DNA from: Sinomonas mesophila
GTDB lineage: Bacteria; Actinomycetota; Actinomycetes; Actinomycetales; Micrococcaceae
Assembly: GCF_001999765.1 (NCBI RefSeq)
Contig: NZ_KV908326.1
Coordinates: 122,239 to 186,238 of the forward strand
Direction of reading: 5' to 3'
Length of the DNA: 64,000 nt
Below the pieces are notes generated by a model. It did no database searches. It was not told where the DNA came from and saw only the letters and a list, made by a program, of their open reading frames with translations. Shown here piece after piece: positions 31,540 to 34,780 of this stretch (position 1 is its first letter; each line of letters starts with the position of its first letter). Position numbers and translations under genes: made by a program.

Positions 31540-32559
31540 ATGCGTCTAGGCGTCCTCGACATCGGTTCCAACACCGTGCACCTACTCCTGGTGGACGCCC
31601 ACCCCGGCGCGCAGCCCGTCGCGTACGCCTCGCACAAGCGCCCGCTCTCCCTGGTGAGGTTCCTCGACGCGGATGGGAGCATCAACGAGGCTGGCCAGCG
31701 CGAGCTCGTCGACTTCGTCCAGGAGGCCTGGGCGTTCGCGGGCAGGCACGACGCCGAAGACCTCCTTGCGTTCTGCACCTCGGCCATCCGCGAGGCCACC
31801 AACGGCGAGGCCGTGCTGGACCGGGTCCAGCGCGAAGCGCACGTGATGCTCCAGGAGCTCACGGGCCCGGAAGAGGCGGCCATGACCTTCTTCGCCGTCC
31901 GCCGCTGGTACGGCTGGGGCGCCGGGACGATCCTGGACCTCGACATCGGCGGGGGCTCCTTCGAGCTCGCGATGGGCCATGACTCCCTGCCCGCCGTGGC
32001 CACCTCGGTCCCGCTCGGCGCGCAGCGGCTCACCCGGGACTGGCTGCCCGAGGACCCGCCGAGCGCCAAGAGCGTCAAGGACGTGCGGCGGTACGTCAGG
32101 GACACGCTCAAGCCCGTCGTGAAGGAGTTCGCGCCGTTCGGGCCCCCCAACCTTGTCACCGGGACGTCGAAGACCTTCCGGTCCCTCGCCCGGATCGCCG
32201 GCGCCGCGCCGTCCGGCGCGGGACCCTATGTCCGCCGCGTCCTGACCCGCACTGACCTCGGCCTGTGGACGCAGCGGATCTCGGCGATGGCCGTGTCGGA
32301 CCGCATCCACCTCCCCGGCGTCTCGGAGGCCCGCGCCCGGCAGCTCCTCGCCGGGGCCCTCGCAGCCGAGGCCGCGATGGAGCTCTTCGAGATCGATCAG
32401 CTCGAGATCTGCCCCTGGGCGCTGCGTGAGGGACTCATCCTCCGCCGCCTCGACCAGCTCGTCCTCGAGGGCCCGCTCGAGCCGCCCGCGCACATCGAGC
32501 CCATCCAGAGCGAGCGGCTCCGCGCCGCGCGCCTCCACCCGTCGAGGGCGCGCGCATGA
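31540..32559 (+). CDS. ppx: Ppx/GppA phosphatase family protein
   Basis: 339 residues. It is a probable exopolyphosphatase or pppGpp phosphatase of the short actinobacterial type. The actin-like ATPase fold is visible: RLGVLDIGSNTVHLLLVDA (phosphate 1), CTSAIREATNGEAVL with the catalytic Glu, ILDLDIGGGSFELAMG (phosphate 2) and LVTGTSKTFRSLARI (adenosine motif). It lacks the C-terminal HD-like domain of the E. coli enzymes. The order ppx, TIM-barrel protein, proC resembles the Rv0496-Rv0500 region of M. tuberculosis. Which substrate it uses is open. Confidence 0.9.
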   Translation: MRLGVLDIGSNTVHLLLVDAHPGAQPVAYASHKRPLSLVRFLDADGSINEAGQRELVDFVQEAWAFAGRHDAEDLLAFCTSAIREATNGEAVLDRVQREAHVMLQELTGPEEAAMTFFAVRRWYGWGAGTILDLDIGGGSFELAMGHDSLPAVATSVPLGAQRLTRDWLPEDPPSAKSVKDVRRYVRDTLKPVVKEFAPFGPPNLVTGTSKTFRSLARIAGAAPSGAGPYVRRVLTRTDLGLWTQRISAMAVSDRIHLPGVSEARARQLLAGALAAEAAMELFEIDQLEICPWALREGLILRRLDQLVLEGPLEPPAHIEPIQSERLRAARLHPSRARA

Positions 32560-33452
32560 CCGGCGCCGAGCAGACGCCGTCGGACGCCGCCGAGGGGGAG
32601 CGCGCGACGTCGGACGCCGCGCAGTCGGCGACCGCTGAAGCCTCACGCGAGGCGGAGGACCGCCACATCCCCGTGGCCCTCTCGAGCGCGTCGGTGTACC
32701 CGCTGAGCATTCACGACGCGTTCGCTGTCGCCTCCGACCTCGGCTTCGACGGCGTCGAGGTCATGGTCACGAACAACGCCACGAGCCAGAAGGCGGACGA
32801 GCTCATCCACCTGGCGGAGCGCTACGGCCAGCCGATCGTCTCGATCCACGCCCCGACCCTCCTGCTGACCCAGCAGGTGTGGGGAGCGCCGTGGAACAAG
32901 ATCAGCCAGTCGTGCAAGATGGCGCTCGAGGTCGGCTGCGACACGGTCGTCGTCCATCCCCCGTTCCGGTGGCAGGGTGCCTACGCCGAGACCTTCGCCC
33001 ACGGCGTGCGTGATCTCGCGGAGGCGTTCGGCGTCCGGATCGCCGTCGAGAACATGTACCCGTGGCGTGTCCGCGGCCGCGAGACTCTCGCCTACCTCCC
33101 GCACTGGGACCCCGTCGGGCAGGGGTACAGCGACGTGACGTGGGACTTCTCGCACGCCGCGACCGCACGGGAGGACAGCCTCGCGGCGCTCAAGGCCCTC
33201 GGCAGCACGGTGCGCCACGTGCACCTCACCGACGGCTCGGGGCGGACCTTCCGCGACGAGCACCTCGTTCCAGGCCGCGGCACGCAGCAGGTGGCCGAAT
33301 GCCTGCAGTACCTCGCGGGCAACGGCTTCGAGGGCGCCATCGTGGCTGAGATCAGCACGCGCAAGGCCCGGGCCGCCGGGGACAGGGAGCGCCTGCTCGC
33401 CGAGACCCTCGAATTCGCCCGCACGCACCTGGGCCAGACCGTCTCACGGTAG
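32556..33452 (+). CDS. Sugar phosphate isomerase/epimerase-like TIM-barrel protein
   Basis: 298 residues. It opens with about 38 low-complexity residues, after which the TIM barrel starts (HIPVALSSASVYPLSIHDAF). Metal-ligand-type residues of the xylose-isomerase-like fold appear in VVVHPPFRWQG, IAVENMYPW, VTWDFSHAATA and VHLTDGSG, and GAIVAEISTRKARA provides a late Glu. ATG 32556 overlaps the ppx stop by 4 bases. Its biochemical reaction is unknown, although the gene is conserved next to ppx and proC in actinobacteria. Confidence 0.85.
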   Translation: MTGAEQTPSDAAEGERATSDAAQSATAEASREAEDRHIPVALSSASVYPLSIHDAFAVASDLGFDGVEVMVTNNATSQKADELIHLAERYGQPIVSIHAPTLLLTQQVWGAPWNKISQSCKMALEVGCDTVVVHPPFRWQGAYAETFAHGVRDLAEAFGVRIAVENMYPWRVRGRETLAYLPHWDPVGQGYSDVTWDFSHAATAREDSLAALKALGSTVRHVHLTDGSGRTFRDEHLVPGRGTQQVAECLQYLAGNGFEGAIVAEISTRKARAAGDRERLLAETLEFARTHLGQTVSR

Positions 33453-33949
33453 GCCGCCGGGCCGCGTCGTGCGGATGGCCACGCCGCCCAGTGCCGCTCG
33501 GCCCACATGCAGAGGCTTAAATGCAGAACGCCGGGACGGTTCTGCAGGAAACATTGGGGGAAATCTCCTGCACCGCCCCGGCGCCTGGGACCGATCCGGT
33601 GAACCGGATCGGTACCATCACTCGCACCTAATGAGTGGTTCCACGATACGCCCGCGTTCCAGAGGGACGCCACGAATTTGGCTGAGAGTACCCTGTGAAG
33701 CCGAGCCGCTGGCATCGCGACGGCGCATGCCCGCGACCACATGCGAAGGGCACCGGCAGCGGGGGAAGGCGGGGACCGATCCCATGCTGCCAGTGCCCGT
33801 GCGGCGGATCCGGGGAGACCCGCCGCTTCCATCACTCGCACCCTGTGAGGTGATCACCACCCTACGGAGGGCGCATGGGGGCATCCCGGACGAATCGTGG
33901 GAGCAAGCTGGGAATGCGCGTCGCTGCCTCGGCTGGCAGGATGGAGGGC
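33453..33949 (+). ncRNA. Long structured leader or RNA with duplicated blocks upstream of proC
   Basis: About 500 bases without a convincing gene but full of inverted repeats. They include CGCCGGGACGG (33529-33539) with CCGCCCCGGCG (33573-33583), enclosing GCAGGA/TCCTGC. ACCGATCCGGT-GA-ACCGGATCGGT (33590-33613) is a perfect 11-bp hairpin. GGCACCGGCAGC (33749-33760) pairs with GCTGCCAGTGCC (33786-33797) with one mismatch. GCGGCG/CGCCGC (33801-33826) and palindrome GGTGATCACC (33849-33858) follow. Two blocks occur twice in the same order: GGGACCGATCC (33587, 33772) and CCATCACTCGCACC (33615, 33829). This looks like two related RNA units in tandem. I recognise no known riboswitch class. Confidence 0.45.
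33590..33613 (+). repeat. Perfect 11-bp inverted repeat with 2-base loop
   Basis: ACCGATCCGGT, GA, ACCGGATCGGT. Too tight a loop for a good RNA hairpin as drawn, so a cruciform-like or protein-binding site is also possible. It forms part of the first of the two duplicated units upstream of proC. Confidence 0.8.
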
Positions 33950-34780
33950 ATGACCAACAAGATCGCGTTCCTTGGCTGCGGATCCATGAACGAAGCCATC
34001 ATGGCCGGCCTCCTGGCCTCGGGGGTCCACGCCACCGACGTCGTGGCCACCGTGCGCCGCTCCGAGCGTGCCGCCCAGCTCGCCGCCAAGCACGGCGTGA
34101 CCGTCATCGCCACGAGCGAGGAGGAGGAAGCGAACCTCGAGGCCGTCCGCGGCGCTGGGGTGGTGATCCTTGGCGTCAAGCCCGTCGGCATCGCAGACCT
34201 CGCCGCGTCCATCGCCCCCGCACTCTCGCCCTCGGCCGTCGTCGTGAGCGTTGCCGCCGCGGTCTCGATCGCCCAGCTCGAGCGCGCGCTGCCCGAGGGG
34301 CAGCCCGTGGTCCGCACGATGCCGAATACCCCCGCGCGCGTGGGCCGCGGTGTCGTCGCCATCGCCGGCGGCACGCACGCCGGCCCCGAACACATCGCCC
34401 GCACGACCGAGCTCTTCTCCGCCGTCGGCGTCGCGGTGAGGGTGCCCGAGGACCAGATCGACGCCGTCTCCGCGGTGAGCGGCTCCGGCCCCGCCTACGT
34501 GTTCTACCTCGCCGAGGCGATGGCGGCCGCGGGGGAGGCCCTCGGCATCGACCCGGAGCTTGCCCTCGTCCTCGCGCGCGAGACCGTGGTCGGCGCCGGG
34601 CTCATGCTCGCCGAGCCGGGCGCGGACCCGTCCGCCCTGCGCCGCGGGGTCACGAGCCCGAACGGGACCACCGAGCGCGCGATCGCCGTCTTCGACGAGC
34701 GCGGACTGCCGGGCATCATCGCCGACGGGGCCAAGGCGGCGACGGCGCGCGCCCAGCAGATCAGCGTCGACCTCGGCTGA
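33950..34780 (+). CDS. proC: Pyrroline-5-carboxylate reductase
   Basis: Last step of proline synthesis: reduces P5C to L-proline with NAD(P)H. 276 residues from ATG 33950, where the Rossmann motif IAFLGCGSMNEAIMAGLL begins immediately; a longer reading to 33875 adds no homologous sequence. Family signatures are VVRTMPNTPARVGRG, AVSGSGPAYVFYLAEAM and the C-terminal LRRGVTSPNGTTERAI. GGAGG lies only two bases before the ATG, so translation may use that site or a leaderless start (CAGGAT 7 bases upstream). The gene follows a highly structured intergenic region that could regulate it. Confidence 0.95.
   Translation: MTNKIAFLGCGSMNEAIMAGLLASGVHATDVVATVRRSERAAQLAAKHGVTVIATSEEEEANLEAVRGAGVVILGVKPVGIADLAASIAPALSPSAVVVSVAAAVSIAQLERALPEGQPVVRTMPNTPARVGRGVVAIAGGTHAGPEHIARTTELFSAVGVAVRVPEDQIDAVSAVSGSGPAYVFYLAEAMAAAGEALGIDPELALVLARETVVGAGLMLAEPGADPSALRRGVTSPNGTTERAIAVFDERGLPGIIADGAKAATARAQQISVDLG

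Follow-up and report, generated by a model that had tools for sequence, protein, structure and literature searches.

What does the DNA between proC (33950..34780, plus strand) and its upstream neighbour encode in the window, by which we mean the whole 64-kb stretch of Sinomonas DNA analysed here? An earlier note on this DNA saw tandem related RNA units upstream of proC, and suggested that they form a two-aptamer riboswitch, an attenuator or a small RNA. It placed them in a ppx–proC intergenic region; however, the gene upstream of the element lies at 32556-33452 and is one that we take to encode a TIM-barrel, sugar-phosphate-isomerase-like protein, and ppx precedes that gene. Our comparison bore out the tandem units as two copies of one gene type, both divergent from proC. 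The region very probably consists of sRNA genes reading away from proC toward the TIM-barrel gene. The fuller reading, i.e. two tandem minus-strand sRNA genes of an apparently uncatalogued Micrococcaceae family that is switched by a PhoP-type regulator and acts through C-rich loops, is quite probable when judged as a whole. Comparison of sequences establishes the predicted gene anatomy, which strand the genes lie on, that their hairpins covary, how far the family extends taxonomically and that it is linked to proC.

Each unit contains, in minus-strand order, upstream direct repeats, a -10 box TANNNT, a leader, two hairpins and, mostly, a short T-rich tail. The leader is nearly invariant (..CTCA..GGTGCGAGTGATG) and ends in GGTGCGAGTGATGG or close to it; among 22 compared sequences, the -10 box was TANNNT except for one CATAGT. 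The proC-proximal sRNA gene, unit 2 (approximate predicted transcript 33748..33852, minus strand), was present in 15/15 genus genomes and covaries. On the minus strand it comprises the upstream half-sites TTCCCAGC (33907-33914) and CTCCCA (33898-33903), which are 11 bp apart (33898..33914), the -10 box TAGGGT (33859..33864; letters checked), the leader CACCTCACAGGGTGCGAGTGATGG (33829..33852), hairpin 1 (33801..33826) and hairpin 2 (33748..33798). Both hairpins were obtained by folding, covary within the genus and carry CCCC in their loops. The start of unit 2 was estimated at about 7 nt past the -10 box and its end is uncertain; the U-rich tail of its relatives is not evident in the window. 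Unit 1 (approximate predicted transcript 33516..33636, minus strand; start estimated, end placed at the tail) has the same plan, with the half-sites TTCACAG (33693-33699) and CTCTCAG (33682-33688), again 11 bp apart (33682..33699), the -10 box TATCGT (33643..33648), the leader ACTCATTAGGTGCGAGTGATGG (33615..33636), hairpin 1 (33590..33613), hairpin 2 (33529..33583) and the 3′ tail TTCTGCATTTAAG (33516..33528), all on the minus strand. Both hairpins of unit 1 appeared in the fold; a C-rich loop (CCCCC) is found only in hairpin 2, and similar tails occur in relatives. The letters of all these parts of unit 1 were checked, as were those of the half-sites and hairpins of unit 2 and of proC. The sequence-only model R1, which covers the -10 box and leader and was built from 22 sequences, matched unit 2 at 33829-33871 (41.4 bits) and unit 1 at 33615-33649 (30.4 bits). 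A small ORF within the leader was considered and rejected, since its ATG is not kept in all members (by eye).

Two repeats had been reported to occur in the same order in both halves of the region. The 14-mer CCATCACTCGCACC is indeed present at 33615 and 33829, with no other copy in the 64-kb window (0.00 expected from shuffles), and it is a homologous repeat, namely the RNA leader. The 11-mer GGGACCGATCC is likewise present at 33587 and 33772 and nowhere else in the 64-kb window (0.14 expected), but at non-equivalent places: in unit 1 it lies in hairpin 1, but in unit 2 it falls within hairpin 2, on the side of the loop. It was not retained among the relatives inspected. The GGTGATCACC described near the gene exists at 33850-33859, overlapping the start region of unit 2, but the palindrome is not conserved in relatives. 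The stems claimed at 33590-33613 (a perfect 11-bp inverted repeat, hairpin 1 of unit 1), 33529-33583 and about 33748-33798 all appeared in the folds, and their letters were verified. The region folded more stably than dinucleotide shuffles on both strands (z = -7.5 for the minus strand and -3.9 for the plus strand). A scan for sigma-70 promoters and terminators found none. A search of Rfam 15 with the window and 16 member loci returned no counterpart at gathering score; sub-threshold matches in the window to mir-722, glutamine-riboswitch, MIR1846 and Vax2os1_2 were taken as chance.

At E ≤ 0.1, a scan with R1 found a match in 177 of 197 family genomes. These represent 31 of 32 genera, and a single genome had as many as eight matches. 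The best E value was ≤0.001 in 145 of the 197 (hand count) and above 0.001 in 32 of the 177; 20 family genomes had no match at E ≤ 0.1, and 12 of these belong to one genus (g6). When the scan was extended to the order at E ≤ 0.01, 13 of 198 genomes matched, 12 of them Micrococcaceae, and the other was a partial match over 24 positions. Applied to the fetched loci, with locus L165 left out, R1 gave 118 matches in 89 sources, or 116 after removal of two duplicates. As the -10 box and leader lie inside R1, their presence in its matches is no independent evidence; the upstream array, the hairpins and the C-rich loops lie outside the model, and a separate scan of named genomes used the leader alone. 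This leader-only pattern, without the -10 box, was found in at least 117 stretches, and 78 of 80 among the matches listed were from Micrococcaceae (Arthrobacter, Paenarthrobacter, Pseudarthrobacter, Glutamicibacter, Paeniglutamicibacter, Sinomonas, Auritidibacter, Micrococcus and unnamed Micrococcaceae). Membership of the family was checked for Auritidibacter and Sinomonas and is presumed for the other named genera. The two exceptions among the matches listed, L322 (Sporosarcina beigongshangi) and L339 (an Acidobacteria MAG), carried the element together with proC and TIM genes that share 60-72% identity with those of the window, and these contigs are likely to represent contamination or mis-binning in public records. 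TANNNT stood close upstream of 90/90 leader-only matches (a loose test), and CCCCC occurred within 120 bases downstream of 75/90. Viral contigs scanned for the leader gave no match. A 16-base leader with two mismatches was discarded as a search pattern because it was too loose, matching 113 of 118 genomes. Among the open-licence papers listed on sRNAs of Arthrobacter and Micrococcaceae, judged by titles, term counts and opening abstract lines, none was recognised as describing the family. The family appears to be uncatalogued and is often multicopy.

Conservation and covariation in relatives, on which the earlier note had staked its proposal, were both found. For unit 2, 97.1% of cells were paired among 14 distinct genus sequences and 11 of 25 pairs had changed on both sides, giving a covariation score of 0.377, compared with 0.169 for shuffled sequences; with the partner strand slid, the score did not exceed 0.091. 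Forty members, chosen mainly from proC-linked copies, were then folded across the family. Most were built alike, with a mini-hairpin at the 5′ end, then hairpin 1, a long hairpin 2 whose loop is C-rich, and a tail; some had a single hairpin. Alignment A6 holds 30 of these 40 members, all shorter than 132 nt and from 10 genera, including hairpin 2 of unit 1; the 10 longer members were dropped, among them unit 2 of the window. In A6, 98.0% of cells pair, with changes on both sides in 95 cells versus 24.1 in shuffles and a covariation score of 0.576 versus 0.256; sliding the partner left 37-47% of cells paired and a score of at most 0.122. The z-score was lower on the sense strand than on the antisense strand in 28 of 30 members (mean, -6.4 versus -4.0), and the predicted folds of the 30 contained 150 GU pairs in sense versus 59 in antisense. 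The hairpin sequences vary with pairing kept, the -10 box and leader are conserved, and the loops vary more than the leader does. A strong hairpin with a CCCC loop was present in 72 of 116 distinct members (shuffles, 18/348) and one with a GGGG loop in three; the loop test found no CCCC hairpin loop in 44 of the 116. The -10 box, the leader and the better fold all lie on the strand leading away from proC, which supports the third suggestion of the earlier note, a small RNA.

A DNA search gave a match in all 15 Sinomonas genomes, in each of which proC was also found, and unit 1 could be recognised by its exact leader motif in six. In three of the 15 (G006, G007 and G010; loci L030, L028 and L029), proC and unit 2 have been flipped as one segment with respect to the TIM-barrel gene. 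Unit 1 did not move with them in G006 and G010 but kept its place at the TIM-barrel gene, and the "leader" is therefore composed of two separable units. Locus L030 also contains a long array of near-identical short repeats beyond the unit. Among the 118 R1 matches, proC was present in the fetched stretch for 44, a count that left out the window's own two (also divergent) units. The member was divergent from proC in 43 of these 44, in 12 genera, and the exception was unit 1 of G006, after the inversion. Similarly, 57 of 90 leader matches in the named-genome set lay no more than 700 bp from where proC starts, and 57/57 were divergent; for many other family copies, the fetched stretch contained no proC. 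Constant orientation combined with changing hairpins is the behaviour of a gene and not of a 5′ UTR. In locus L121 (G064, of a G050-type genus), the space between proC and the TIM gene holds an additional ORF with a family member on either side, which suggests an insertion between tandem copies. The putative promoter element of proC itself is the -10-like CAGGAT at 33937..33942 (plus strand), 7 nt upstream of the ATG. Because this motif lies 6-7 bases before the ATG in 15/15 genus genomes (by eye), the proC mRNA is probably leaderless. An effect of the regulator on proC transcription is possible, since the regulator sites sit between the two start points.

The promoters of the family share a uniform, phased arrangement upstream of the -10 box. 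A TANNNT stands where this box is expected in 113 of 116 members, a partly circular figure; the array was counted on these 113, after three members without TANNNT in range had been set aside. Pairs of TCNCA half-sites at exactly 11, 22 and 33 bp were observed 25, 16 and 22 times, respectively, where mononucleotide shuffles predict 0.1-0.2, and peaks of CAG lie 13, 24, 35 and 46 bp upstream of the -10 box. Steps of 11 bp between such putative half-sites are the spacing of OmpR/PhoB-family boxes, and the sRNA genes are probably controlled by a response regulator. Mycobacterium tuberculosis PhoP is described as binding TCACAGC-N4-TCACAGC, a 7-bp repeat with a 4-bp spacer (PMC4832192), and the predicted TCNCA array at 11, 22 and 33 bp resembles such TCACAGC-like repeats. 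The Corynebacterium glutamicum PhoR box, read here in reverse, is TTCACAGG at 11-bp steps (PMC3353115), which is also close to the half-sites of the family. A close homologue of PhoP in the genome, L248, scored 286 bits against the solved PhoP, with PrrA next at 190.6. Its recognition helix, IVESYISYLRRK, keeps the VESY of the solved PhoP (VVESYVSYLRRK). A PhoP homologue was found in 40/40 genomes, including 20/20 without R1 matches; its presence is therefore non-discriminating and the assignment rests on the box. That PhoP in particular controls the sRNA genes may be proposed, tentatively, from this resemblance.

The strongest competitor, possible but on balance unlikely, is that the sRNA genes are under another regulator of the OmpR family (L250-type, MtrA or other) and that their products act mainly via the leader, not the C-rich loops. 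An L250-type regulator (200-256-bit match) occurred in 17 of 20 genomes with R1 matches and in 7 of 20 without (hand count), and for this reason it stays a rival, although the split is confounded by phylogeny, 12 of the 20 genomes without matches being from one genus. All eight second-tier regulator hits that were fetched were 64-81% identical to L250. The mycobacterial MtrA motif, reported as GTCACAgcg (PMC13189361, PMC2945938), is also similar to the half-sites, and both the stronger conservation of the leader and the 44 members without a CCCC loop would suit action through the leader. However, VESY in the recognition helix is kept by L248 and not by L250, which has IVELYISYLRKK, and no TCNCA pair at 11, 22 or 33 bp was found before mtrA in the 10 loci examined of 15. 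The pstS promoters likewise had no such pair in the 10 loci examined of 15, where GTTCACC-type boxes were seen by eye, and both promoters were rejected as carriers of the repeat. The exact double box TTCNCAG-N4-TTCNCAG led nowhere as a regulon finder, with seven sites in 5 of 15 genus genomes. Elsewhere in the genus, exact double TTCNCAG boxes adjoin genes for secreted proteins, which we take to be S53 (acid) protease-like (L138, L142, L143 and L144) and phosphoesterase-like (L139); a wider regulon of the same regulator is possible.

Under the preferred reading of PhoP-type-switched, C-loop-acting sRNAs, an OmpR/PhoB-family response regulator, most likely of the PhoP type, would bind the tandem TCNCA half-sites and recruit RNA polymerase to a promoter that has no recognisable -35 box, and the two-component system would thereby switch the sRNAs on. 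The resulting RNA, of roughly 100-120 nt, would terminate beyond hairpin 2. The UUCCCCCCAA-type loop that it exposes would pair with G-rich mRNA stretches, e.g. ribosome-binding sites, which would be occluded, and translation of the target mRNAs would be lowered; the near-invariant leader would be a common handle for a shared partner. We lean toward action through the C-rich loops. The pattern TTGGGGGGA-N3-14-ATG was set aside as a target finder, its 28 sites versus eight for the reversed control being suggestive at most.

C-rich loops also call to mind the 6C RNA (Rfam RF01066), a short actinobacterial RNA whose hairpins likewise expose runs of C; in M. tuberculosis it reportedly pairs with mRNAs through these loops. 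That the family is a divergent branch of 6C is nevertheless improbable. 6C, on the same strand as the element, was the best-placed weak Rfam hit (window, 21.4 bits; L109, 27.4 bits), but the gathering score of 47 bits was not reached in the window or at members in 16 loci, and 6C membership is not claimed because this defining score fails. A 6C hit fell at the element in only one of six genus loci searched. In C. glutamicum, 6C is described as having two C-stretch stem-loops (PMC4046766). Set against the two stem-loops of about six C residues in RF01066, unit 2 has CCCC in both loops, which favours a relationship, but unit 1 has a C-rich loop in hairpin 2 only, many members have one such loop or none, and some have a single hairpin. 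The leader, promoter array and locus of the new family also differ from those of 6C, and the family is often multicopy. A related genome with an above-cut-off 6C (L048) has it in a different gene context, its neighbours presumably not being those of the element. At L054 (G023), a 6C match of 49.6 bits lies above the cut-off between ORFs that we take to be rplA- and rplJ-like; it is doubtful and may be a spurious match that the 6C model produces when a genome is GC-rich.

It is very improbable that the units are a mobile or repeat element (REP/MITE-like) or bidirectional terminators spread by chance: several copies per genome, tandem pairs and strong stems would fit, but the -10 box and leader are conserved while the hairpin sequences change with pairing kept, the orientation beside proC is fixed in 12 genera and a phased 11-bp array lies upstream. 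Least likely of all is a plus-strand cis-regulatory leader of proC (tandem riboswitch, attenuator or similar), in favour of which are the structure and duplication of the element, its place just before a biosynthetic gene, a plus strand that is likewise more stable than shuffles, and two genus sequences that fold about as well or better in antisense. Against it, the conserved sense signals face the other way, 43 of 44 proC-linked members are divergent, many members are located away from proC, the -10-like CAGGAT adjoins the proC ATG and no Rfam riboswitch reached the gathering score. The two-aptamer riboswitch and the attenuator are thus not supported: the conserved -10 box, the leader and the better fold all sit on the strand opposite to the one that had been proposed.

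In organisation, the units of the preferred sRNA reading resemble several regulated sRNA sets. The CiaR-dependent csRNAs of streptococci, as far as their descriptions go, are related sRNA genes, several in each genome, that answer to a single two-component system of the OmpR type. The LhrC sRNAs of Listeria are described as multicopy (five), dependent on LisRK and blocking translation through redundant CU-rich sites (PMC4132741). In the family described here, too, the related copies (118 matches in 89 sources) have a common type of promoter, with direct repeats phased in 11-bp steps. Both comparisons are with another phylum, the boxes of the csRNAs are different, and the likeness is one of functional class with no sequence relation claimed. 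Mcr7 of M. tuberculosis, compared by description only, is a PhoP-dependent actinobacterial sRNA proposed to block an mRNA start, but it is about 350 nt long and reported as restricted to the M. tuberculosis complex (PMC4038636). The promoter of the new family suggests that control of sRNA by a PhoP-type regulator may extend beyond mycobacteria.

To our knowledge, few trans-acting sRNA families have been recognised in Actinobacteria. With sRNA genes spread across the family, often in several copies and behind a uniform phased promoter, Arthrobacter-type soil bacteria would have a regulatory layer comparable to the csRNAs and LhrC. More than 100 members carry the near-invariant leader on otherwise different hairpin bodies, and bacteria of this family, as far as we know, lack Hfq. 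A speculative idea, to which we give little weight, is that the leader, in which GCGAGUGAUG comes after a 5′ mini-hairpin ACCUCA..AGGU, serves all members as a docking tag for an sRNA partner, either a matchmaker protein or the ribosome. If so, the family would be a plug-in platform in which one regulated promoter and tag are combined with exchangeable C-rich-loop bodies. The constant leader is a ready bait for an RNA partner. In the mtrA leaders of 10 loci (L216-L220, L224-L226, L229 and L230), TTGGGGGAG was seen by eye shortly before the ATG in five and GGGGGAGAG in seven; these motifs are complementary to UCCCCCAA-type loops, and mtrA is a possible target.
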